Shown here piece after piece: positions 503 to 13,872 of a DNA stretch of 15,852 nt; positions within the stretch are counted from its first letter, which is position 1, and the number at the start of each line of letters is the position of its first letter. The stretch covers positions 1 to 15,852 of the forward strand of contig OMRN01000437.1 in NCBI GenBank assembly GCA_900313265.1, given 5' to 3'. The position numbers were made by a program, and so were the translations under genes. The DNA comes from an uncultured Lachnospiraceae bacterium (GTDB lineage Bacteria; Bacillota; Clostridia; Lachnospirales; Lachnospiraceae). Under the pieces are notes generated by a model. The model was not told the origin of the DNA. It saw only the letters and a list, made by a program, of their open reading frames with translations, and searched no databases.

Positions 503-1345
503 ATGCCATTTCGAACACTGGAAATCACAAAACCATCAGAAATTCACATTAACCTTGGACAGTTGGAGATTACACAGAAAGAAAAAATTATTATTCCTAT
601 TGAGGACTTATACCAAATTACAACGATTGGACCAAACATTCGTCTGTCTACTATGGATTTATCTATTTTATCTCAAAAAAATATATGTGTTATGACATTG
701 GATGACAAATATCTTCCGACAGCAATTGTTCTTCCATTTTCGGGCAATTCCAGACAGTCACAGTTAATGCATGCACAAGTTTCCTTTCCGGAAGAAAAAT
801 ATCGGGTTCTGTGGGAAAAAATCATCAGACATAAAGTAGATAATCAGGCAAGAAACCTTGTTTTGCTTGGCTTAAACGGCGCAGAGAAGATTGAAGCATA
901 TGCTCAGAATATCAACGAAAAAAATGTTGATTATATAGAATCCTTGGCAGCAAAAGATTATTTTCAGGCATATCATAACGGACTAAACCGACGGGGAGAT
1001 GATCCGGTAAACAGCAGGTTAAATTATGGCTATGCTATAGTGAGAAGTGCCATATCCAGAGCTTTGTTTATTACAGGCTTTCATCCGGCATTCGGAATTC
1101 ATCATAACAACCAATTGAACGCATTTAATCTTGTGGACGATTTAATTGAACCATACCGGGCGATGGTAGATCAGATAGCATACTTTAACATCGGACCGAA
1201 TGAACATCTCAATAAGTCTGAAAGAAAGGAACTGGCCGGCATTCTTTTTAACGCATGTATTATTAATGGAAAAAAAATAAATATCATATCTTCGCCAATA
1301 CGATACACCAAAAATAGTGTATCGTTCAACTCATGCCGAATTTAA
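503..1345 (+). CDS. cas1: Type II CRISPR-associated endonuclease Cas1 (orphan)
   Basis: Cas1 is the metal-dependent integrase that, with Cas2, inserts new spacers into CRISPR arrays. The 280-residue product matches the type II (II-C-like) branch. The N-terminal beta domain is followed by the helical catalytic domain with ESLAAKDYF (residues 146-154, catalytic Glu146), RRGDDPVNSRLNYGYA (163-178), GIHHNNQLNAFNL (198-210, catalytic His at 200 or 201) and DDLIEPYR (212-219, Glu216). All three catalytic positions are therefore kept. The start is set by AGGAGG at 491-496, six bases before ATG. The last 15 or so residues do not look like the family C-terminus and coincide with an inverted repeat, so the 3' end is probably altered. 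No cas9, cas2, csn2 or repeat array is in the window. The gene is clearly more AT-rich than the synthetase genes beside it, which suggests transfer or a decaying locus. Confidence 0.9.
   Translation: MPFRTLEITKPSEIHINLGQLEITQKEKIIIPIEDLYQITTIGPNIRLSTMDLSILSQKNICVMTLDDKYLPTAIVLPFSGNSRQSQLMHAQVSFPEEKYRVLWEKIIRHKVDNQARNLVLLGLNGAEKIEAYAQNINEKNVDYIESLAAKDYFQAYHNGLNRRGDDPVNSRLNYGYAIVRSAISRALFITGFHPAFGIHHNNQLNAFNLVDDLIEPYRAMVDQIAYFNIGPNEHLNKSERKELAGILFNACIINGKKINIISSPIRYTKNSVSFNSCRI
1300..1325. repeat. 9-bp perfect inverted repeat at the cas1 3' end
   Basis: ACGATACAC, an 8-base loop and GTGTATCGT form a perfect hairpin inside the last codons of cas1. It lies where the protein stops resembling other Cas1 C-termini. 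It may be the edge of a small inserted or deleted element, or a hairpin acting at the end of the cas1 transcript; no T-run follows it directly. Confidence 0.5.
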
Positions 1346-1711: not shown

Positions 1712-4618
1712 TTACTTATTCTTTTCCATTCGAATTAAATGCTCCTCATCAGGCTTAGAAATACCATTTTTGAAGGAACAATGCTCCCTGCCTTTATCCG
1801 ACGGTTGCAGCCAGACAGCTGTCATTTCTGAAAAATAACGTGCGTCCCATGTAATCAGGGTCTCGCTTTTCATCTCTTCCGTGCGGAACTGTGTAATCCT
1901 TAACGGAACCTCGTGTTTTTGAAAGCCTCGCAGTTCCTCAAGCCGGATATAGCTTAGGATACGTTCTTCCTTTTTCAGCGCGGAATCCGTTTTGGTCAGA
2001 TCCACAAAAGAGATTTCCGGAAACGCCTCCTTCCGGAAGGTCGCCTTGAGCAGATTGTTTTCATCCGGAACCAGGTGATACGCATCCGCCTTCATCCGTC
2101 CTTTTAACACTCCGGTTAATGTTTCCGCATCGGTAAACGGAAAATCTGCGGTTCGAATGTGTCCATATACCGGGACAACATGTTTTTGAACTTCTTCCGG
2201 GAACAGCGCGCAAAGGAGGTCTGCCCCATTTTTCTCCGACCGTCCGGGAAAAGCAAGGGATACATCGATTGCCCGGAGGCTTTCCACCCAGGGTTTGAGC
2301 TTTTCGTGAATTTCCTCTTTTTGTTCCTTCGAAACGAACGGGCTTGTGAAAAAGGACAGCATCAATGTCAGGAAGGTCCAGCGCCAGTCATTTAAATCCA
2401 GCATCTTTTTCTGTTCTATCTTCCTTGTTTTCTCCAGAACATGTATTACGGAAAGGCAGGCCTCGTAAGCTTTCTCTCCGCTTGCCCTGCTTTGCAGATC
2501 GCTGCCTGCATAAATGTAATAAACATAGCCTTCCTCTCCCGGAAGGACTGCCACTCTTTCTGCCAGGGATACCGCTTCAATCAGGAATATGCTGTCACAG
2601 AAGCTTCTGCGCGTCGCAGTATCAAAGCAAATACCGGCTTTCTTCAGAAACTCCGTCCGATATCCCCAGCACCAGATGTCTATCCCACCGCCTGCAAAAA
2701 TGGCCCCGATGCAGGGATCGTTTTTCTCATACACACACGTCTCCGTCTCCCTAATGTTCGCTTTTCGGGAAACATACCAGGCGCCTTCTTCTGCTTCTTC
2801 CCGAAACGGGAACATAACCATGTCCGCATCCTGTTCCTCCATGACCTTCACTGCGCGGCTGACGCATTCCGGTATCAGCTCATCGTCGGAATCCAGCCAG
2901 AACAGATACTTTCCCTGCGCACGTTCAAGCAGGGCATTCCGGATTGCGCCGAGGGTTTCTGTCGGCTCGTTCAGGGAGAAGATGGATACGTTTTCCATCA
3001 TCCCGAATTTTTCTTCGACCTCTTTAAAGTACTCCTCACTCATATTGTGGACACCGATTATCCATTCGATCCGCTCTGTGCCAAAGCTCTGCGCCTTCAC
3101 AGAAGCCGCTGCCCGCCCGAGCAGACTGATGTCTGTTTTATGCACCGGCGTCAGTATCGACACACGCGGTCTGTTCTTTTTATTCGGAAACTGGATGACG
3201 GGAAGTCTTTTCCTGTCCCGTTTTCCGCTGGCATTTTCCGGTATGGCATCCAGGACATTCAGGAAAGCCGGAATCATATACATCGGCAGCCGTTCGGAAA
3301 GATGTTTTCTTAATGCTTTTTCATCAATTTTCGTATCTGCCGTATAAAACCCACAAAGGACCTCGTTATTCTCGTTTTTTTGTACACAGACGGCTGCGCG
3401 GGTGATACCCGGAAATACCTCGATTGCAGCTTCTACCTCTTCCACTTCGATCCGCTGTCCATTCAGTTTTATCATTCCGTCTTTTCTTCCAATCGGTGAG
3501 ATGTCTCCATCTTCTGTCCTACGTCCGTAGTCGCCTGTCTGGAACAGGCGTCCAAACTTCGGATGGACCGGAAACTTCTCCTTTGTCATTTCCGGATGAT
3601 GCAGATAATATCCACAATCTGCGCTCGGGCCGCTGATAAAAATCTCTCCTTCTTCTCCCGGAAGGACCTCATTTCCGTATTCATCCAGCAGGTAGATATT
3701 CACCCCGTTCGCCCGGTGTCCCAAACGAATCTCCTCGCCTTTTCTCCAGTAATAGGACGCACACTCGCCTGCTTCCGTACTTCCATAGTGAATCCACAGC
3801 GTTCCGCTGATTGCATCGGCGAGTTTTTCCGCCGCCTGCGGTGTGACCATTTCTCCGGTCAGAGGAAGACTTTTCAGCCGGTAAAACGGTTCCTTAAAGA
3901 ATGGAAGCTCTAAAAGGCGCAGAGCAACGGAAGTCGTGATTGGGAAAAAATCCACCTCATATCGGTTCATGGACTCCGCAAGGAGCGCCGGATTCGCCAG
4001 TTCCTCGTCGGTCGACAACAGGAGCGTTTTTCCGTAGTGGAATGCCAGCGCAATTTCCAAAAGTGCCACCACATAAGCAAAATTGGCCACGCAGAGACAG
4101 GTCTTTGCAACAAGACATGAATCGTCTTCCACCTTATCCAGCTCCACGTACACCTGCAACACTTTATGGTGGAGTACCACCCCTTTGGGCACGCCGGTGC
4201 TCCCGGATGTGAAAATGATGGCGGCAACGTCATCCTCTGTTACGACAGGAAGGGGCGTTTCCTCTGTTTCCGATTCCAGAAGGCGCTGAAAGCAATCGTC
4301 ATCCATCTGCAGGACACTGTTTGTATCGTCTCTCACAAACTCCATTCGGTCTTTCGGCCAGCGGGAATCCGTTGCCACAAATACAGCACCGGCATAAAAC
4401 ATACCAAAAATCGCACAGACTGCATTCACATTCCGGCTCATGGTAAGCATAATGCAGTCTCCCTTCCGGATTCCGTCACGCACCAGTGCACGGCCAATGT
4501 GCTGCGCTCTTTGAACCAGTTCCCGGTAACTGAGTTTTTCCTGCCCCGAGATTACTGCGACGTCTTCCCTGTCTTTCAGCTCTTCAATCACTTCCAAAAT
4601 TGTTGATTTGATTTCCAT
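1712..4618 (-). CDS. NRPS adenylation domain fused to family 2 glycosyltransferase
   Basis: The 968-residue protein has an acyl-adenylating domain at about 1-475. Its motifs are FTSGSTGVPKG (136-146), HYGSTE (277-282), TGD (361-363), GRKDGMIKLNGQRIEVEEVE (377-396) and the catalytic SGKRD lysine, K466. After a linker of about 15 residues, with no carrier domain, a GT2 fold starts at PRVSILTPVH (484-493) and carries the nucleotide-sugar metal motif WLDSDDE (574-580). The region from about 710 to 968 is not recognised. The A domain should activate a carboxylic acid with ATP, and the partner is probably the free carrier encoded at the head of the operon. At the A4 position where amino-acid-activating domains read F-D, it reads FAYVV (180-184). 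The ATG is 56 bases after the preceding stop, with a purine-rich GAAGAAGAG upstream. It is the last gene of the operon. The sugar and acceptor cannot be deduced. Confidence 0.85.
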   Translation of the reverse strand: MEIKSTILEVIEELKDREDVAVISGQEKLSYRELVQRAQHIGRALVRDGIRKGDCIMLTMSRNVNAVCAIFGMFYAGAVFVATDSRWPKDRMEFVRDDTNSVLQMDDDCFQRLLESETEETPLPVVTEDDVAAIIFTSGSTGVPKGVVLHHKVLQVYVELDKVEDDSCLVAKTCLCVANFAYVVALLEIALAFHYGKTLLLSTDEELANPALLAESMNRYEVDFFPITTSVALRLLELPFFKEPFYRLKSLPLTGEMVTPQAAEKLADAISGTLWIHYGSTEAGECASYYWRKGEEIRLGHRANGVNIYLLDEYGNEVLPGEEGEIFISGPSADCGYYLHHPEMTKEKFPVHPKFGRLFQTGDYGRRTEDGDISPIGRKDGMIKLNGQRIEVEEVEAAIEVFPGITRAAVCVQKNENNEVLCGFYTADTKIDEKALRKHLSERLPMYMIPAFLNVLDAIPENASGKRDRKRLPVIQFPNKKNRPRVSILTPVHKTDISLLGRAAASVKAQSFGTERIEWIIGVHNMSEEYFKEVEEKFGMMENVSIFSLNEPTETLGAIRNALLERAQGKYLFWLDSDDELIPECVSRAVKVMEEQDADMVMFPFREEAEEGAWYVSRKANIRETETCVYEKNDPCIGAIFAGGGIDIWCWGYRTEFLKKAGICFDTATRRSFCDSIFLIEAVSLAERVAVLPGEEGYVYYIYAGSDLQSRASGEKAYEACLSVIHVLEKTRKIEQKKMLDLNDWRWTFLTLMLSFFTSPFVSKEQKEEIHEKLKPWVESLRAIDVSLAFPGRSEKNGADLLCALFPEEVQKHVVPVYGHIRTADFPFTDAETLTGVLKGRMKADAYHLVPDENNLLKATFRKEAFPEISFVDLTKTDSALKKEERILSYIRLEELRGFQKHEVPLRITQFRTEEMKSETLITWDARYFSEMTAVWLQPSDKGREHCSFKNGISKPDEEHLIRMEKNK

Positions 4619-4674: not shown

Positions 4675-7600
4675 TTACTTATTGTCTGTTAAAAACTGTC
4701 TTAGCTCCTTCAATGCTTCGCGCATCAGTCTTTCGAGCGCTGCGGCATCATACCGCGATGTGTCACACCAGCCCATAAACCCGAATCTCTCATCCGGGTA
4801 GGCCTGGATTTCAAGAGGGGTATCTGTGACTGCAAAATATGTATTCCAAAGAGAACCCGCCGGATTCTCTTCATCCTCCAGTTCGTTCGGAAGAAGACTC
4901 CGGTATCCTTCCGGTACCGGAATATTCTGCACGTTCAGATTCAGCAGTTCTTCGCCGGAAGGAAGCGGCACATCCGGAAGGCCGAATACCCAGGCATAAC
5001 GTTCCGAACGAATCAGTTGTCTTTGCAGATCCTCCAAGGAATCTTCCTGCTTCAAATATACCGGGAATGATACAGTAAACATTCCGGGAAGCTGCATTTC
5101 CGATGCGTTTCTTCCGGTTCCCATGGTATAAAAGAGTGCGTTTTCCGTTCCCTGCACAGTTAACAGCGCTCTTCCGATTGCATAGGTCATAAGAATGGAT
5201 AAGGTGCTGCCCTTTTCCGCACAGCATTTTTTCAGTGTTTCGAACCGTTTTCTTCCTCCTGCCATGAAAAAGCTTTTTTTCGGCCCCGGGCACGCTGCTG
5301 CCGGGAAAGGAACCGCTTCCCCCGCCTGCTCGAAAAAGATATTCCAGTAAGCAAGTGCCGTACTCCGGTCTTCCCCAAAAAGGCGCCGGATCCTCTTTTG
5401 CCACAGTGTGCGATCCTGCAAAACGGGATCATGACCTAACACTTCCCGCAGGATCACGGCAATCCCGATTCCATCCAGCAGATAATGAGAGAATCCGCAG
5501 AAAAGGATTGCTTTTTTGTCGGAGATTCGAATATAACCCAGACGAAAAGTAGTCTTTCCGCCGAGTTCGGTTCTTTCTGAAAGCTCCATCCGCACCAGGG
5601 AGGAGAGATATCGCCTCTGTCCTTCTGAGAGTCCGTCACCCTTTGAAAGCTTGCGCAAATCGACATAAAAGAACTCGGTCATGGTCTGATTTTGCACCAC
5701 CTGCACCGGTTCCCCGTCCTTCCCCGTCATAATCCTCGAGCGCAGGGCATCATGCTTTTCGGAAAGCTCCGTAATCCGTTGCCTTAACTGCTCTTTTGAA
5801 GCAGAGGCGTCGATTTCACCGGTCAGTACGATCGGATATAACGATCCACGCCGCCGGAACCGGCTTTCGACATGGCGCGTCACCGGATAGACGATCTCTG
5901 TACCTTCCCCAAAGTACGCGGCATCTTCCTCTTTATTATCCTCGCTTTGCTCCTCGCTTTTTATAAGAGCGCGCAAGCGAGGTGCAAGCAGCCTCGGGGT
6001 CGGTGCTGTAAAGATATCTGTCAGTTCTAAGGAAAACCCTTCCTTTTCCAGAAGCGATGCCGCCATTAAAGCATGAATCGAATCGCCGCCCAGAGAGAAG
6101 AAACTGTCTTCCGCACCCGGCGGTGTCTCTGTGTCCAGAACCTCACCAAAAATGCGACACAGCATCCCTTCCCGCTCGGTTGCCGGAGCGCTGCCGGAAG
6201 CTGCACCCAACTCCGGCTCCGGAAGGGACAGATAGTCCAGTTTCCCATTCTCATTGATTGGGAACACGTCCATGTGCATGATCATGGAAGGGATCATGTA
6301 ATAGGGCAGGTGTTCCGAAAGGAATTCCCGAAGAACTCTTTCTTCCACTTCCTTCTCCGCCGTATAATAACCGCAAAGCTGTTCCTTTTTTAAAGAAACG
6401 GCCGCACGATGGATCCCTTCAAAGAGTTCCATCGCCGCTTCCACCTCTCCCGGTTCGATCCGAAGCCCGTGGAGTTTGATCATACGGTCAATGCGCCCAA
6501 TCACCCTGATTGTTCCGTCTTCCCTCAGCCGCCCTGCATCTCCGATGCGGAAAAGACGGCCATACACCGGATGGTCCAGATATTTTTTTTGATTCAGTTC
6601 CGGATCCAGATAGTGCCCATACTGTGAGCTGATCCCGCCAACCAGAATCTCTCCCGCATCACCGGCAGATACGGTCTTCAGATTCCTATCCAGAAGATAG
6701 ACCTTAACGCCCTCCGGAAACCCTTCCAGATAAATCTCTTTTCCCGGTTCATAGCGTGACGTGGAAAAGAGAAAAGTTTCCGTAGATCCGTAGCCGTTGA
6801 CTAACACCCCGTTTTCCATTGCGGAAAGCAGCCTTACGGCATCGGATTCTTTGAGCATCTCGCCGCCGACCCACAGATTGGTCACCTGCTGCCTGATCAC
6901 CCTCGCGAACAGCGGATGCAAAAGTGTGCGAAGCAGAAAGGACGGAGTTGCGCCAAGGCACTGCACCCGGTTTCTGACCAGACAGTCCACCATCTGTTCG
7001 ATTGAAGTCATTTCCTGCGGTGTCGGAAAGACCAGCGTATTTTCATAAGCAGGAATCGTAAAAACAGCAACCGCCGGAAAAACAGCTGCAAAGACAGGAA
7101 TGGTAAAAATACAGTCCAGATCGTAAAACTCCGGCAGAATGTCAGGTGTTTTCGCAAAGGACACCAGGATTCTGTGGTGAAGCACCGTTCCTTTCGGAGT
7201 CCCCGTACTGCCGGAAGTATAATAAACGGCTGCCTCATCCTCTTCCCTGACCACCGGAAGCGCAGTCTCCGGAAGGTCACTCCGAAGAAGCTCCAGAATC
7301 ATTTCATCGGTGATGCACCAGGAAACGCCTGCTTCCTCCGAAACCAGACGCAGCCGCTCCGACGGCCACCTCATATCGGCAGCCACATAGACGCCTCCTG
7401 CAAGAAGGATCCCATACATTGCCCGGACCACATGGATACTGTTCTGCACAGACAGCAGGATGCGATCTCCTTTCCGGAGCCCCTGCCTGATCAGACCCCG
7501 GGCAATTTTCTTTGCATCTGCCGCAAGCTGCCGGTAAGAGAGGGAGTCTTCCCCGCAGATCAGTACGGTGTGATCCGATTCTTCCTGCAGACGAAGCAGA

Positions 7601-7686
7601 TCCGTAACCGTTTCCAGAGTCTGCCGAATCTCGCCGGGGAGGCCTTTCTTTCCATTATTCTTTTGTTTCGATACGATGTCACTCAC
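4675..7686 (-). CDS. Nonribosomal peptide synthetase, A-T-C
   Basis: This is a 1003-residue, one-module synthetase. The adenylation domain (about 20-490) shows YYTSGSTGTPKG (155-166), GYGSTE (298-303), GRIDRMIKLHGLRIEPGEVE (397-416) and NGKLD with K482. The carrier domain (about 500-575) has FFSLGGDSIHAL, with the phosphopantetheine serine at S536. The condensation domain (about 595-1003) has SHYLLDG (733-739) for HHxxxDG: the catalytic second His (H734) and the DG are kept and the first His is Ser. The A4 region reads FAAV (199-202) without the usual Asp. The start is GTG, 8 bases inside the end of the upstream gene, with AAAGGA seven bases before it, so translation is probably coupled. There is no thioesterase; the protein ends in a condensation domain, so the chain must pass to another carrier or be released by condensation. 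It closely resembles the A-T-C part of the upstream protein. Confidence 0.92.
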   Translation of the reverse strand: MSDIVSKQKNNGKKGLPGEIRQTLETVTDLLRLQEESDHTVLICGEDSLSYRQLAADAKKIARGLIRQGLRKGDRILLSVQNSIHVVRAMYGILLAGGVYVAADMRWPSERLRLVSEEAGVSWCITDEMILELLRSDLPETALPVVREEDEAAVYYTSGSTGTPKGTVLHHRILVSFAKTPDILPEFYDLDCIFTIPVFAAVFPAVAVFTIPAYENTLVFPTPQEMTSIEQMVDCLVRNRVQCLGATPSFLLRTLLHPLFARVIRQQVTNLWVGGEMLKESDAVRLLSAMENGVLVNGYGSTETFLFSTSRYEPGKEIYLEGFPEGVKVYLLDRNLKTVSAGDAGEILVGGISSQYGHYLDPELNQKKYLDHPVYGRLFRIGDAGRLREDGTIRVIGRIDRMIKLHGLRIEPGEVEAAMELFEGIHRAAVSLKKEQLCGYYTAEKEVEERVLREFLSEHLPYYMIPSMIMHMDVFPINENGKLDYLSLPEPELGAASGSAPATEREGMLCRIFGEVLDTETPPGAEDSFFSLGGDSIHALMAASLLEKEGFSLELTDIFTAPTPRLLAPRLRALIKSEEQSEDNKEEDAAYFGEGTEIVYPVTRHVESRFRRRGSLYPIVLTGEIDASASKEQLRQRITELSEKHDALRSRIMTGKDGEPVQVVQNQTMTEFFYVDLRKLSKGDGLSEGQRRYLSSLVRMELSERTELGGKTTFRLGYIRISDKKAILFCGFSHYLLDGIGIAVILREVLGHDPVLQDRTLWQKRIRRLFGEDRSTALAYWNIFFEQAGEAVPFPAAACPGPKKSFFMAGGRKRFETLKKCCAEKGSTLSILMTYAIGRALLTVQGTENALFYTMGTGRNASEMQLPGMFTVSFPVYLKQEDSLEDLQRQLIRSERYAWVFGLPDVPLPSGEELLNLNVQNIPVPEGYRSLLPNELEDEENPAGSLWNTYFAVTDTPLEIQAYPDERFGFMGWCDTSRYDAAALERLMREALKELRQFLTDNK

Positions 7687-10600
7687 TGATTTTCCTTTCT
7701 TTTCCTTCCCCTGTTCCGATACAGGTCTTAAGCTGGCGAATCCATTCTGCTGAAAGGCTTCGGATTATTTCCGCGTCATATATACCTGAATCAAACAGCA
7801 AAGACCAGGAAAGCTGATTCGCTGTTTCTGCATAAATCATGACGGTATCTCTGTCGGAAACAAAAGTCCCGTCCATGATCTCTCTTACCTGTTTTGGTTC
7901 CAGAATTTCCGTAAACAGGTGCATCTGCCCTTCTTCCGCCAGATCACTGCTGTGAGTGGATCTAAGACGCAGAGGACTTCCTTCCATTACGGAATACGCC
8001 GGATCTGCCCAGACCCAGGCATGGTCTGATGATGTAAGAAGCTGATTCTGACAGGTAAAAATCGTATCCTCCTTTGTAAGCCGAAGCGGAAAAAACAAAA
8101 CAAACATGCCGGGAATATCCATTTCCGAAGCGCTTCTTCCGTTTCCGGCCACGGAAAAACACACCTCATCCAGTGAAAGGATTTTCATCAGGCTCTTTCC
8201 CAGGCTGTATCCAAGCAGAGCGGAAAGGGTAACCTGATGTGTCCGGCAGAAGTCCCGTGTTTTTTCATAAAACGTCCTTCCGCAGGAGGAAAAAACGGTC
8301 TCCCGCTTTCCCGAACCTTTTTTGTCCGCCCCCTTCGGCAGTTCTGTATAAGTCTTGCAGCCTTTTAACAGGTTCTCCCAGTATGCCGTCGCCTCCGTCC
8401 GGTCGGAACAGAAGAGCCGGGCCATATGCCGGTTTATTTCCTGTGTATCCGGTCGGGCTTGTTCCTGTCCTGTCAGTTCACGAAAGAGGCGGTCCACGGA
8501 AGCGCCTTCAATCGTAAGATGGGAGCTTCCGATATATAAAAGAGCCTTCTCTTTGGAAATCCGGATATGACCAATACGAAAAAGCGTCTTCTTTCCTAAA
8601 TCGCTCATGGGGGAATACTCCATCCGGATCAGTGTGGAAAGATAGCTTTTTTGTTTTTGAGAAAGACCTTCTCCTTCTGAAAGGGCCGAAAGGTCGGTCC
8701 GAAAGAACTGACTTCTCGGTGTTTTTAAAACTACCTGACAGAAATGTCCGTTTCCCGTCGGAAGAAGAAGTGAGCGAATCGCGGTGTGATTCCTGCTCAC
8801 CTCCTGAACGGCTGTTTTAATCTGTTCTGACGGAATATCGGAACTGATTTCAAAACAATATACCTGTGGCCAGGTGTTGCTGTTGTTTTCCAAATAGTTT
8901 TCCATGACAGCCGATGCCGGATAGACCTTTTCCACTTCGTCCCAGTCGATGATTTCGGAAATCGCGCTCCGGATCTCTTCAGAAACTTCCGGGACCTTCT
9001 CCTCCTGTTCTGCCGCTTTCGCGCGAACGCGCAAAAGCGGAGCAAGAAGACGGGCCGTCGGCGCGGCAAAGAGGTCTTTCAACTCCATCGAATACCCTTC
9101 TTTTTCCAGCAGAGATGCTACCTTCAGAGCATGGATAGAATCCCCTCCGAAAGAAAAGAAACTGTCTTCCGCACCCGGCATCTTCTCTGTGCTTAGAACT
9201 TCGCCAAAGACGCGGCACAGCAGTTCTTCCCGTTCATTGGCCGGAGCGCTGTCAGAACCTGCATCTGTTTCCGGCTCCGGAAGGGCTTTGAAGTCCAGTT
9301 TCCCGTTCCCGCTTACCGGCAGCGTTTTCATATATATGATTCTGGAAGGGATCATGAAATAGGGTAGCTGTTCGGAAAGAAACTGCCTCAAACTCCTTTC
9401 CTCCACTTCCTTCTCGCCCGTATAATAGCCGCAGAGCTGCTCCTTTTTCATGGCAACCGCAGCACGCCGAATGCCCCTGAAGCTTTCCATCGCCGTCTCC
9501 ACCTCCGCAGGTTCGATTCTAAGCCCATGGAGCTTAATCATGCGGTCGATGCGCCCTGACAGGATGATTCTCCCCTTCTCATCCACTCTGGCTGCATCCC
9601 CGGTGCAGAAACAACGACCGTAAAACGGATGGTCCACATATTTTTTTCGAGTCAGTTCCGGATCCAGATAGTGTCCATATTGTCCGCAAACACCACCAAT
9701 CAGAAGCTCTCCCGTTTCGCCATTCGAAACAGGAAGCTGATTCTCGTCCACGACATGCAGCTCCACACCGATTGGAATACGGTCCAGAAAGAGTTCCTTT
9801 TCCGGTTCATACGATAAACTGGAGATCATGAATGCTTCCGATAATCCGTAGCCAATCGATAATGTTCCGTTTTTCATCGAAGCATAGAGCCTGTCGGCAT
9901 CGGATTTTTTAAGTTGCTCGCCACCGGCCCATATATTGGTCACCTGCTGCCTGATCACATTCGCAAACGACGGATTCAGAAGGGCCCGAAGCAGAAAGGA
10001 CGGGGTTCCTCCCACACTCTGCACCCGGTTTCGGGTCATACATTCCACCAGCCGGTCGACAGAGCCCATCTCTTCAGGCGTTGCAATGATCAGTGTCTTT
10101 TCATACGCGTTGAGCATAAAAACCATGATTGCCGAAACAACGGATGCAAAAGCGGGAAAAATCAAAAACGAATCCCGTTCATAGTACTCCTGCAGGATTC
10201 TGGCCGGATTGCCATGTGCCAGAAAAACTCTGTGATGAAGAGCAGTCCCTTTTGGTGTCCCTGTACTGCCGGATGTATAATAAATGGCTCCTTCGTCTTC
10301 TCCTTTGATGACCGGGAGCGGAATCTCCTGACAGTCTGTTCCCAGATACTCTAAAATCATTTCATCCGTGACCTGCAAAGAAACCTCAGCCTCTTCCAGA
10401 ATCAGATGCATGCGCTCTGCCGGCCACTTCGTATCTGCCGCCACATAAACGCCCCCTGCGAGAAGGATTCCGTACATAGCCCGGACAATATGGATACTGT
10501 TTTTCACAGCCAGAAGGACCCGGTCTCCCTTCTGAATTCCCTGTTCCAAAAGACAGCGAGCGATTTGCTTTGCGTCTGAGACAAGCTGGCTGTAAGAGAT

Positions 10601-12064
10601 GGATTCTTTCCCGCAGATCAGGGCGGTGTGTTCGGATTCTTTCAATGCCAGCAGCCGGTCTGTGACTGTCTCTAAGATCCATAGCCTTCCACAGAGCAGA
10701 CTCTGATCCCCGTCCGAAAGAATCTGCTCAATCATCCGGACAAACGACCGTTCAAGTATGCATATCCATTCTTCCGAAAACTGATTGGCATCATAACAGA
10801 ACATACAGGTGAAACGCTCCTCTATGGTGTCAAAATACAGACAGAATCCCGTGGAAAGGTTATCATACGTTTCATCTCCAAGAAATGTGTAACCGGGACT
10901 CTTTTTTCGAATCACATCCATAATGGATGCTCCCTGAAAGTTATGAAAATTTAACAGATGGTCAAAAAAGCCTTCTTCGTTTCCAAGCTTCCTTCCGAGT
11001 TCCCCCGGAGACAGATATGCATACTCCCGGGAAATCAGAATCTGTTTCTGCACTCGTCTTGCCAGCGCACCGAAGAACTCGTCCTCTTTCACTTCCACCC
11101 GTACGGGAAACGCATTGATAAAACAGCCTGAAATCTGATTGATTTCTGCAACTTCCATGCTTCTTCCTGAAGATATCGTCCCGAAAACAATATCTTTTTT
11201 TCCGGTGTATCCTGAAAGAAGAATCCCCCAGAGAGTATGCAGAATACTGTTCAATGTTGCATTATATCGTCCCGGAAGCGCCTGGATGTCTTTCGTTTTT
11301 TCTTTCGAAAAAGAATGGACCAGGGTCCTCATGTCCATTTTTTTTCCGGAAGAAAGCCTGTTCGGAAGCGCAGTCATCTCTCCTTCTTTCAAAAGCTCTT
11401 TCCAATAGGACAGATCCTTCTCACAATCCCGTCCTTCCAGCCATCTCACATAATCCTGATAAGCTGCTTTCTTAGAATTACCGGTACACAGTTTCCCTTT
11501 CAGCAGACCGTCTAAAATCAGGTCCTTTCCCAGAAGGGCAAAGCTCTCACCGTCATCAATCAGATGCGGTCTCGAAACAATGAAGGCGCGGCCATTGTTC
11601 TTTGCCGCAAAAACAGTAATGCGAAGCAGAGAATCTTCCTCCGGGTCAAACCCGCGTGTACGATCTGCCTCGCAAAATGCATCAATTTCATCCGACAGCT
11701 CTTCTATCGTCTGATCCGGGCGGTGGATCAGTGTGACTTCCGGTTTCCGATCTTTTAAGACAACCTGAAACGGTGTTTTCATGCCGCGAAAGACAAATGC
11801 CGTTCGCAGGTTCTGTCTTTTCTTCACCAGGTTCAATAATAGTTCTTCTCCTGTCCCCGGCAGAGGCGGCGCCTCAAACTTGACCACATTCTGAAGAAAG
11901 AATACATCCGAAAACCGCTTTGTTACCTCCAGCATCCAGGCCTGTCCCGGGGAAAGAGGATAAATTGCTTCGATCTTATCGCCATATTTTTCAATAATCT
12001 TCCCGAGGCTTTCCGGATCCAGATTTTTCGACATGTATTGTATCTTATTTTTCATTTTCTCCAT
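7679..12064 (-). CDS. Nonribosomal peptide synthetase, C-A-T-C
   Basis: This is a 1461-residue synthetase. The first condensation domain (about 30-450) has YPLSPGQAWML (35-45), LRTAF (86-90), PHLIDDG (166-172, catalytic H167) and ISGCFIN (311-317). The adenylation domain (about 460-930) has YYTSGSTGTPKG (595-606), GYGLSE (738-743, where YGPTE is usual), GRIDRMIKLHGLRIEPAEVE (837-856) and K922. The carrier has FFSFGGDSIHAL with S976. The second condensation domain (about 1045-1461) has SHLTIEG (1181-1187): H1182 is kept and the usual Asp is Glu. The A4 segment is FASV (639-642). The leading C domain should accept an upstream donor, either from the free carrier encoded just before it or from an acyl-CoA. 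The start is uncertain: ATG at 12064 or 12055, the latter preceded by GATGGAG. It lies 78 bases after the carrier gene and overlaps the next gene by 8 bases. Confidence 0.92.
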   Translation of the reverse strand: MEKMKNKIQYMSKNLDPESLGKIIEKYGDKIEAIYPLSPGQAWMLEVTKRFSDVFFLQNVVKFEAPPLPGTGEELLLNLVKKRQNLRTAFVFRGMKTPFQVVLKDRKPEVTLIHRPDQTIEELSDEIDAFCEADRTRGFDPEEDSLLRITVFAAKNNGRAFIVSRPHLIDDGESFALLGKDLILDGLLKGKLCTGNSKKAAYQDYVRWLEGRDCEKDLSYWKELLKEGEMTALPNRLSSGKKMDMRTLVHSFSKEKTKDIQALPGRYNATLNSILHTLWGILLSGYTGKKDIVFGTISSGRSMEVAEINQISGCFINAFPVRVEVKEDEFFGALARRVQKQILISREYAYLSPGELGRKLGNEEGFFDHLLNFHNFQGASIMDVIRKKSPGYTFLGDETYDNLSTGFCLYFDTIEERFTCMFCYDANQFSEEWICILERSFVRMIEQILSDGDQSLLCGRLWILETVTDRLLALKESEHTALICGKESISYSQLVSDAKQIARCLLEQGIQKGDRVLLAVKNSIHIVRAMYGILLAGGVYVAADTKWPAERMHLILEEAEVSLQVTDEMILEYLGTDCQEIPLPVIKGEDEGAIYYTSGSTGTPKGTALHHRVFLAHGNPARILQEYYERDSFLIFPAFASVVSAIMVFMLNAYEKTLIIATPEEMGSVDRLVECMTRNRVQSVGGTPSFLLRALLNPSFANVIRQQVTNIWAGGEQLKKSDADRLYASMKNGTLSIGYGLSEAFMISSLSYEPEKELFLDRIPIGVELHVVDENQLPVSNGETGELLIGGVCGQYGHYLDPELTRKKYVDHPFYGRCFCTGDAARVDEKGRIILSGRIDRMIKLHGLRIEPAEVETAMESFRGIRRAAVAMKKEQLCGYYTGEKEVEERSLRQFLSEQLPYFMIPSRIIYMKTLPVSGNGKLDFKALPEPETDAGSDSAPANEREELLCRVFGEVLSTEKMPGAEDSFFSFGGDSIHALKVASLLEKEGYSMELKDLFAAPTARLLAPLLRVRAKAAEQEEKVPEVSEEIRSAISEIIDWDEVEKVYPASAVMENYLENNSNTWPQVYCFEISSDIPSEQIKTAVQEVSRNHTAIRSLLLPTGNGHFCQVVLKTPRSQFFRTDLSALSEGEGLSQKQKSYLSTLIRMEYSPMSDLGKKTLFRIGHIRISKEKALLYIGSSHLTIEGASVDRLFRELTGQEQARPDTQEINRHMARLFCSDRTEATAYWENLLKGCKTYTELPKGADKKGSGKRETVFSSCGRTFYEKTRDFCRTHQVTLSALLGYSLGKSLMKILSLDEVCFSVAGNGRSASEMDIPGMFVLFFPLRLTKEDTIFTCQNQLLTSSDHAWVWADPAYSVMEGSPLRLRSTHSSDLAEEGQMHLFTEILEPKQVREIMDGTFVSDRDTVMIYAETANQLSWSLLFDSGIYDAEIIRSLSAEWIRQLKTCIGTGEGKERKISE

Positions 12065-12142: not shown

Positions 12143-12880
12143 TTACTCTTCCTTTTTGTCTGAATCCGCGTTTTTAGAAGGATTGCCTGTCTCGTTCGGC
12201 CAGACCGGGTATACCGGATATGCCATCAACGGAACCGGTGCTGCCCACACGAAAGGCACGGTTCCCGGAAGTCCCGGAAGCGATGCCACCCCCGGAAATG
12301 ACGCGGCATCCGGAGTCGGTGCTGCCTCTGCAAACGTGAAGGCTTCCTGGGGCGGAACGCACATTTTGTCCGACCCGGATACGGGAACAAAATAATACAT
12401 CATCGGAACAGGAATGAAATAGCCTGCCTGCAACGGCGCTGCCCCCGGCTGCACGCCCGGAGAAGGCGGAATCCTGCCTGCTGCTTTTTTCTCTTCCTCA
12501 TTGGATTTTTTTTCGCTCATGCCAATTTTTCCCCTGACATCTTCGACCCGGATCCCGAATTCAGTCATCGCTTTCTGAACCATCGGATCTGCCAGATATT
12601 TCTCTATTTCCTCGCCGGAAAGATTGCCGCTGATCACATCGGCAGGAATGTCAACCGGCTCCATTTCTTCTGCTGCCTCCACCAGTTCTTCCACCGTAGG
12701 CTGGGTATATAGTTTCAGCATATCCAGTTTCAGGCCGTATCCCGCAAGAGCGCTAACCAGCTGAACCCCTTTCATCGAGTCTCCGCCCACCTCAAAGAAA
12801 TTGTCATCGTCTTTTACTTCGGCCACGTCAAATACCGTTTCCCATGCCTTGACAAACCGTTCTCTTTTCGTTTCTTCCAT
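12143..12880 (-). CDS. Free peptidyl carrier protein with proline-rich tail
   Basis: Residues 1-75 of this 245-residue protein form a carrier domain: FFEVGGDSMKG (28-38) contains the phosphopantetheine serine S35, followed by the helix II-IV pattern through YTQPTVEELVEAA. Residues 75-130 look helical and charged, with LSGEEIEKYLADP (87-99) and an acidic/lysine stretch. From about 137 the chain becomes rich in Pro, Ala, Val and aromatics, for example YFIPVPMMYYFVPV (154-167) and PLMAYPVYPVWP (217-228), and ends in a charged tail. Free carriers are usually 75-100 residues, so the tail is unusual. The start was moved 20 codons in from the longest frame because AAAGGAGAACGT lies directly before the ATG at 12880. 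It is the first gene of the operon. As the A-glycosyltransferase protein has no carrier, the two probably work together; that is an inference. Confidence 0.85.
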   Translation of the reverse strand: MEETKRERFVKAWETVFDVAEVKDDDNFFEVGGDSMKGVQLVSALAGYGLKLDMLKLYTQPTVEELVEAAEEMEPVDIPADVISGNLSGEEIEKYLADPMVQKAMTEFGIRVEDVRGKIGMSEKKSNEEEKKAAGRIPPSPGVQPGAAPLQAGYFIPVPMMYYFVPVSGSDKMCVPPQEAFTFAEAAPTPDAASFPGVASLPGLPGTVPFVWAAPVPLMAYPVYPVWPNETGNPSKNADSDKKEE

Positions 12881-12956
12881 ACGTTCTCCTTTAAAAAACA
12901 TTTTTTTCTGTAAATAGCTATTTTCCACCTCTTTTTTCAAAACCTTTCATTTAGGA

Positions 12957-13365: not shown

Positions 13366-13872
13366 TCATGTATTTTCTTCCTTCGGTGCTTTCTTTTTTC
13401 CAAAAATCAAAACCTTACTGAATACGTAATTCAGTATCGTAACAAGGACAGCGGAAATAAAAATTTTGACGAACCAGTAGTGCACGTCTTCCACATCCAT
13501 TCGGGAAAGGAAGGAAACCTTTTCGTGAAGGAAGTTACATAGAGGGAAAAAGATTCTCCAGACATTGATAAAAACAAACATAATCAATATGTCCAGAATC
13601 CATGTACTCAGACGGGAGCCGGCAAATCCGAAAAATTCTTTGAGAATATGCGGGTTGCTGCTTTTAAAAACCCATTTCCGGTTCAGCGGATAGGCAAACA
13701 GAACACCGACCACCCAGCCGATGGTATTGATAATAAAATTCTGGATTTTAATATCCGGATCCAGTCCCAGGAGCTTTGCGACAAAACAGGCACCCCAGGA
13801 TACAATGGTTGTCAGCACGCCGACAATCAGGTATATGATAATTTCCTCGTATTTATTATATAATTCTTTCAT
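13366..13872 (-). CDS. GtrA-family membrane protein
   Basis: This 168-residue integral membrane protein has four predicted spans, at about 11-32, 46-63, 90-108 and 136-156. It has the GtrA family signatures: a Gly-rich first span (YLIVGVLTTIVSW), NRKWVF after the second span (64-69) and NYVFSKVLIF at the end of the fourth (148-157). The tail is lysine-rich. GtrA proteins are small membrane proteins associated with moving undecaprenyl-phosphate-linked sugars across the membrane, or with GT2 glycosyltransferases in wall and O-antigen glycosylation; the exact activity of this one is unknown. It is transcribed in the same direction as the synthetase operon but is separated by about 485 bases with an ATPase relic and the operon's own promoter, so it is probably a separate unit. 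A link to the GT2 domain of the A-glycosyltransferase protein is plausible but not shown. Confidence 0.85.
   Translation of the reverse strand: MKELYNKYEEIIIYLIVGVLTTIVSWGACFVAKLLGLDPDIKIQNFIINTIGWVVGVLFAYPLNRKWVFKSSNPHILKEFFGFAGSRLSTWILDILIMFVFINVWRIFFPLCNFLHEKVSFLSRMDVEDVHYWFVKIFISAVLVTILNYVFSKVLIFGKKKAPKEENT

Follow-up and report, generated by a model that had tools for sequence, protein, structure and literature searches.

A carrier-less fusion of an adenylation domain and a GT2 glycosyltransferase in a Lachnospiraceae operon

The fused gene and its conservation

This report concerns a gene of an uncultured Lachnospiraceae bacterium (assembly GCA_900313265.1) in which an adenylation (A) domain of the nonribosomal peptide synthetase (NRPS) type is followed directly by a glycosyltransferase (GT) domain of family GT2. 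The gene lies on contig OMRN01000437.1, the whole of which, 15,852 nucleotides, was analysed and is referred to as the window; it belongs to an incomplete genome (2.24 Mb in 477 contigs, 73% complete). The gene, termed A-GT2 here, is a single intact reading frame of 968 codons running from ATG to stop without an internal stop codon. Its parts, all encoded on the minus strand, are listed below, with residues of the wall-teichoic-acid transferase TarS serving as reference points.

1712..4618, minus strand: the A-GT2 gene with its probable condensation-domain (C-domain) stub, the last gene of the operon, an architecture also seen in clusters P0002–P0007
3197..4618, minus strand: adenylation domain, residues 1–474, placed by Pfam, by sequence match to LgrA and GrsA in the PDB and by alignment of the specificity code
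2189..3169, minus strand: TarS/TarP-like GT-A domain with helical extension, residues 484–810
3140..3142, minus strand: His493, aligned with the uracil-stacking Tyr10 of TarS; 23 of the 24 clade members have His here
3044..3049, minus strand: His524-Asn525, where the canonical VDDGSTD motif has DD; the same in all 24 clade members
2882..2893, minus strand: DSDD, residues 576–579, the metal and donor motif; D576, D578 and D579 invariant in 24 of 24
2594..2596, minus strand: Asp675, at the catalytic-base position (TarS D178); the residue before it is Cys rather than Glu
1808..2128, minus strand: probable condensation-domain N-lobe stub, residues 831–937, from a profile–profile match

Pfam places AMP-binding at residues 17–338 (187.8 bits, cut-off 29.9), AMP-binding_C at 394–466 (36.3 bits, cut-off 24.5) and GT2 at 487–621. 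Similarity to A domains stops at about residue 474 and the GT domain starts at 484 with PRVSILTPVH, leaving a gap of 10–20 residues. The chain does not form a complete NRPS module, in which a carrier (T) follows the A domain: Pfam finds no PP-binding domain and there is no GG[DHN]S motif. A carrier hidden in the C-terminal end was ruled out by Pfam, the motif scan and profile comparison. The original prediction had described an A domain joined to a GT2 domain with no carrier between them, the GT2 start lying some 15 residues past the A domain and being followed by DSDD, and in all these respects it is borne out. A carrier for this A domain, if any, must be supplied in trans. Whole-chain structure prediction with AlphaFold2 on seven sequences was poor (predicted local distance difference test score 60.5), and VIA afterwards covered chiefly residues 1–478.

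A protein search with residues 478–968 scored 7991 candidates with chains of about 530–1700 residues, so that unfused relatives were outside its reach. It yielded eight matches: the window's own cluster, six further A-GT2 clusters (P0002–P0007) and one other GT2 protein (P0008). The A-GT2 order is kept in all six clusters, where the GT half is 49–70% identical, and in P0006 the chain runs on past A-GT2 into a C domain with the motif HLIIDG. These six clusters rule out a sequencing error or an assembly fusion of two genes, and the A-GT2 fusion is a real, conserved protein. Mean pairwise identity among the A-GT2 proteins is 0.63 in the A core, 0.63 in the GT-A domain, 0.52 in the helical extension and 0.55 in the end domain, so that the GT and end parts are also conserved; it falls to 0.25 in the last 31 residues. 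Within the genus the fusion is confined to the window's genome (1 of 31), five others giving matches at 2e-17 to 5e-11.

The last 250 or so residues, originally left unassigned as a possible acceptor-binding domain, divide instead into the helical extension of the GT (about 711–810) and the probable stub (about 831–937). The stub scores 37.2 against a C-domain profile, with a probability of 64.5%, whilst eight other profiles reach at most 23.2 and 40 shuffles at most 18.7. A first profile test had been weak (23.8, 3.3%); the score rose after the tail of a protein from locus L105 and more C domains were added, and it is still moderate. The likeness to NRPS condensation domains covers the N-lobe as far as the HHxxxDG site. 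There the window protein differs in reading ARYFSEM, with Arg replacing His, and the chain ends about 35 residues on, so that active site and C-lobe are both absent. The C-terminal end of A-GT2 is probably a truncated C-domain N-lobe without the catalytic His.

The glycosyltransferase domain and its clade

The GT domain belongs to GT2 both by its match to PF00535 and by its GT-A fold. It folds like the teichoic-acid transferases TarS, TarP and RmlT and keeps their key catalytic residues. Published work on TarS (PMC5156392) reports that R75A, D91A, D93A, D94A, E177A and H210A each abolish activity, that D178 is the proposed base, that E177 contacts the C4 and C6 hydroxyls of the sugar and that Y10 stacks on uracil. 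In the profile alignment, R75 corresponds to R560 of the window protein, D91, D93 and D94 to D576, D578 and D579, E177 to C674, D178 to D675 and Y10 to H493. H524-N525 falls on TarS D39-D40 (numbers counted off the printed alignment), and H210, within a loop of unsure alignment, has no counterpart. R560, D576, D578, D579 and D675 are invariant in the 24 domains of the clade described below, which thus retain both the DxD motif and the catalytic Asp.

The donor side of the pocket is another matter. In GT2 enzymes such as SpsA, the Asp at the VDDGSTD position reads the nucleobase. That acidic residue is missing from the window protein and from the whole clade, His-Asn standing in its place in 24 of 24 domains. 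The Glu equivalent to E177 is kept in 15 of the 24, is replaced by Cys or Gly in all seven A-GT2 proteins (Cys674 in the window) and by Gln and Thr in the two domains of locus L097. Compared with TarS, TarP and RmlT, therefore, the window GT has His for Tyr10, His-Asn for Asp-Asp and an A domain in front, and its A-GT2 subclade has lost E177. From these alignments catalysis looks possible whilst the donor looks different.

The distribution of the His-Asn (HN) pair was followed with a ten-sequence GT2 profile (alignment A3) scanned over all loci gathered by then. Twenty-four distinct domains scored at least 185 bits, and all have His-Asn where VDDGSTD has DD; the other GT2s scored at most 116 bits and lack His-Asn wherever the motif aligned. 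A class-wide search gave one match beyond the window, which at 123 bits and with VDDNSTD is the best GT2 without His-Asn. In a tree of the 24 HN domains and 12 other GT2s, unrooted and with the latter chosen by similarity, the HN set is split off with 100/100 support; within it the seven A-GT2 domains cluster together (100/100) beside the L072 domain and the two from L097 (96/92). As judged from sequence, the HN domains are a discrete clade of 24 members. Of the 397 family genomes searched with A3, at least eight, including that of the window, carry HN domains; 16 genomes have a match below 1e-30, eight of which hold other GT2s instead. An order-level search found them in at least six genomes besides the window's, one in common with the family search. 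In the family, order and class-wide searches at most four or five candidates per genome were scored and misses are likely, so that these counts are lower bounds.

The clade is marked by the company that it keeps. Seven of its members are A-GT2 proteins (one running into a C domain), one is A-T-C-GT2, one GT2-C, eleven are GT2-GH3 and four are unfused. Twenty of the 24 are thus fused to A, C or GH3, and the remaining four lie at most two genes from such enzymes in the stretches of 6–20 kb examined around each locus: three adjoin genes for A-T-C-GT2 (L097), GH3 (L103) and A-T-C (L105), and that of L072 is two genes from a C gene, which is followed by an A gene. Domains at the loci were named with local profiles partly seeded from the same loci; the GH3 assignment was checked with Pfam in three of the eleven GT2-GH3 proteins and depends on a local profile (at least 205 bits) in the rest. 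Six of the 24 domains came from the search limited to long chains, whilst the other 17 besides the window's came from genome searches without that limit and comprise 13 fused and four adjacent cases. For comparison, the sequence examined at 49 GT2 loci (36 totalling 552 kb and 13 of about 3.6 kb) gave no match to A, C or GH3. The 36 came from a contig scan with two peptide patterns (A2), and the GT2 profile picks up 34 of these at 21–46 bits. L042 and L051 are below its threshold and the motif column aligned only in L020 (DDGS), so the 36 count as non-HN by score.

The fusions differ in their make-up. The GT2-GH3 proteins (eleven proteins at L067, L068, L069, L071, L098–L102 and L104) share with the window protein the GT2 clade and an acid-activating partner, and often lie near C-type acyltransferases and exporters; they differ in that GH3 rather than an NRPS A domain activates the acid and in that the GT2 domain is N-terminal. 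The A-T-C-GT2 (L097:9808-13872) and GT2-C (L070:8191-10500) proteins likewise combine the clade with NRPS domains in one chain, in another domain order and with a carrier present or the A domain absent. The C domain of the latter is assigned by a local profile only, at 105 bits, and is below the Pfam cut-off. Among the ten GT2-GH3 loci, six have an ABC-exporter match, five an acyltransferase-3 match and seven a member of a family of about 440 residues without a Pfam name. A 12-protein profile of this family matches C domains with a probability of 96.4% and a score of 80.3, seven other profiles reaching at most 20.3; a single-sequence profile of it scored only 13.8 against the A-GT2 stub. HxxxD[G/A] is correctly placed in eight of the 12, and not in the members from L099 and L102. 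Members include L067:12339-13676, L067:11044-12339 and L068:12057-13340, with others in L068, L069, L071, L099, L100 and L102. Counting this family, 13 of 16 HN loci have a C-type gene or domain; of the other three, L098 has one on the opposite strand only, and none was seen in the locus sequence of L101 or L104.

One observation weighs against a special link between the clade and acid activation: other GT2 genes lie inside HN clusters (L067, L069–L071, L099, L100, L102), with the same enzymes alongside. Because of these, pairing with acid-handling enzymes is typical of the HN clade and not exclusive to it. By the gene and domain content of its loci, the HN clade as a whole is tied to acid activation.

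Two further gene products were seen at these loci. L097:353-2335, on the same stretch as the A-T-C-GT2 gene, encodes a protein in which a condensation domain (PF00668) is joined to a cyclic-nucleotide-binding domain (PF00027). L070:10505-11695 and L069:6363-7529 each combine a STAS and an APH-type kinase domain in one chain, and so occur in HN-GT2 clusters of both the NRPS and the GH3 type.

The operon and its adenylation domains

A-GT2 closes a minus-strand operon of four genes, in the order free carrier, C-A-T-C, A-T-C and A-GT2, which together hold three A, three carrier and three C domains, the stub apart. The remaining features of the window are as follows.

12143..12880, minus strand: free carrier (PP-binding, GGDS) whose long tail has many proline and aromatic residues; likely start ATG at 12880 after AAAGGAG (TTG at 12940 in the list of open reading frames)
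7679..12064, minus strand: C-A-T-C protein, 1461 residues; C motifs RPHLIDDG and SSHLTIEG; 8-base overlap with the next gene
4675..7686, minus strand: A-T-C protein, 1003 residues; C motif FSHYLLDG
503..1345, plus strand: Cas1 gene, PF01867, 280 residues, adjoining the end of the operon

The free carrier that the model of the original prediction needs is encoded in the operon itself (12143–12880). Pro, Tyr, Phe and Val abound in its tail (YFIPVPMMYYFVPV ... PVYPVWP), which is possibly a docking element. Pfam finds no thioesterase in the four operon proteins, and none was sought elsewhere in the genome.

The A domain of A-GT2 resembles those of NRPS enzymes such as the LgrA modules and GrsA PheA. 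It has both AMP-binding and AMP-binding_C, its closest sequence match in the PDB is LgrA, an NRPS A domain, and K466 aligns with GrsA K517, the catalytic lysine of motif A10. In GrsA, Asp235 contacts the alpha-amino group of the substrate. With GrsA as ruler, the specificity residues read VVLPPTHECK in A-GT2, VFVGWGGLFK in A-T-C and VVIGWGGMIK in C-A-T-C, so that position 235 is Val in all three A domains of the operon; it is Val or Ile in P0002–P0007. In the window the A domain thus departs from its NRPS relatives in having no carrier after it and in that an alpha-amino group would probably not be bound. The claim that all core motifs of an A domain are present holds for the catalytic motifs and fails for the recognition of alpha-amino acids. 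Asp235 is missing from 14 of 16 aligned A domains linked to HN GT2s, being kept in L098 and L103. The A domains of L072 and of L070:1-1150, a second A match in L097:4192-8811 and weak A matches in L067, L069 and L098 are outside this alignment; two A domains from elsewhere in the window's genome (one with Asp, one with Leu) and a cut one were aligned and not counted. Across the counted domains the pattern at residue 235 speaks against alpha-amino acids as substrates. A domains without Asp235 may activate hydroxy, keto, aryl or fatty acids.

In the surroundings, GtrA (13366–13872) was considered as a part of the system and rejected: its gene region has DNA matches in 26 of 30 relatives in the genus, and no window NRPS protein has a match in the sequence examined at the loci of eight such relatives. 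In four of the eight (L114, L115, L116 and L117), however, the contig ends less than 1.5 kb from GtrA, which could mean that the adjoining region varies or assembles poorly. Positions 1–520 and 1300–1720, beside Cas1, contain no repeats of at least 18 bases, and the window has no Rfam match at gathering score and no tRNA. Elsewhere in the same genome, contig C437 holds a second NRPS cluster (L075) with A-T-C, T-C and GH3 enzymes, two ABC exporters and no HN-GT2, the aligned A domain of which is also without Asp235.

A proposed joining of an activated acid to a transferred group

The composition of the operon suggests an assembly scheme to which we would assign slightly less than an even chance. 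The A domain of A-GT2 would activate an acid other than an alpha-amino acid and load it in trans onto the free carrier. This is the simplest assignment, since the free carrier is the only one without its own A domain and A-GT2 has the only A domain without its own carrier. The loaded carrier would feed the N-terminal C domain of C-A-T-C as starter, two more acids would be joined to it, and the terminal C domain would release the chain by transfer to an acceptor hydroxyl or amine. Release onto such a nucleophile is plausible because Pfam finds no thioesterase in the four proteins and the second His of the terminal C domain is retained (FSHYLLDG). The HN-GT2 domain, reading a donor base differently from that of a uridine diphosphate (UDP) sugar, would either make the acceptor or glycosylate the acyl chain; that it makes or modifies the nucleophile is suggested by the GT2 domains found beside C domains in P0006, L070 and L097. 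An acylated glycoside or a glycosylated acyl chain would result.

A plainer explanation is that a normal UDP-sugar glycosyltransferase decorates the NRPS product and joined the operon's last gene by chance. Glycosylated nonribosomal products are common, the GT2 fold and DxD motif are intact, and HN clusters do contain ordinary GT2 genes. Chance fusion sits poorly, however, with a clade whose 24 members are all coupled to A, C or GH3 enzymes when none of the 49 comparison loci is, and a normal donor sits poorly with the exchange of the TarS and RmlT DD for His-Asn in all 24; we regard such ordinary tailoring as unlikely. Rather improbable, too, is a GT2-like domain that no longer transfers sugar and instead acts between the A and C components as a scaffold for docking or for holding the acceptor. 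The changed base pocket and the loss of E177 in all seven A-GT2 proteins would fit a scaffold, and the probable C stub suggests that A-GT2 does retain non-catalytic remnants, but a scaffold would not need all of R560, D576, D578, D579 and D675, which are invariant in 24 of 24 domains across several architectures. Very little probability attaches to the A domain working as an acyl-AMP ligase whose acid goes straight to the GT product without a carrier, as in conjugation by GH3 enzymes: eleven relatives are GT2-GH3 and the A-GT2 chain has no carrier, yet the operon encodes a free one, its A, T and C domains balance at 3:3:3, and in the PDB the A domain best matches those of NRPS enzymes (LgrA).

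The original idea of an activated acid meeting a sugar survives in part. A shared pathway for acid activation and a sugar-type transferase gains support from the recurrent coupling of this GT2 clade to A, C and GH3 in several domain orders. An aminoacylated product is unlikely where an alpha-amino acid is meant, with Val at position 235, and the altered pocket makes an ordinary nucleoside diphosphate sugar a less certain donor. A bolder generalisation, which we hold to be distinctly doubtful, is that the HN clade has left UDP-sugar donors, whether for another activated donor (based on cytidine, adenosine or something else) or for a non-sugar group, and has become specialised for acyl-activation pathways; its members would join an activated acid to the transferred group with A, GH3 and C enzymes in one chain or cluster, the window protein being the direct A-GT2 form.

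The couplings of the HN clade point to a little-explored acyl-sugar chemistry. If the proposals hold, a transferase family would have been wired repeatedly to acid activation in one bacterial family, its acylated or glycosylated products would form a class mis-predicted by A-domain rules made for alpha-amino acids, and TPxH together with HN replacing VDDGS would provide a short search motif for more members.
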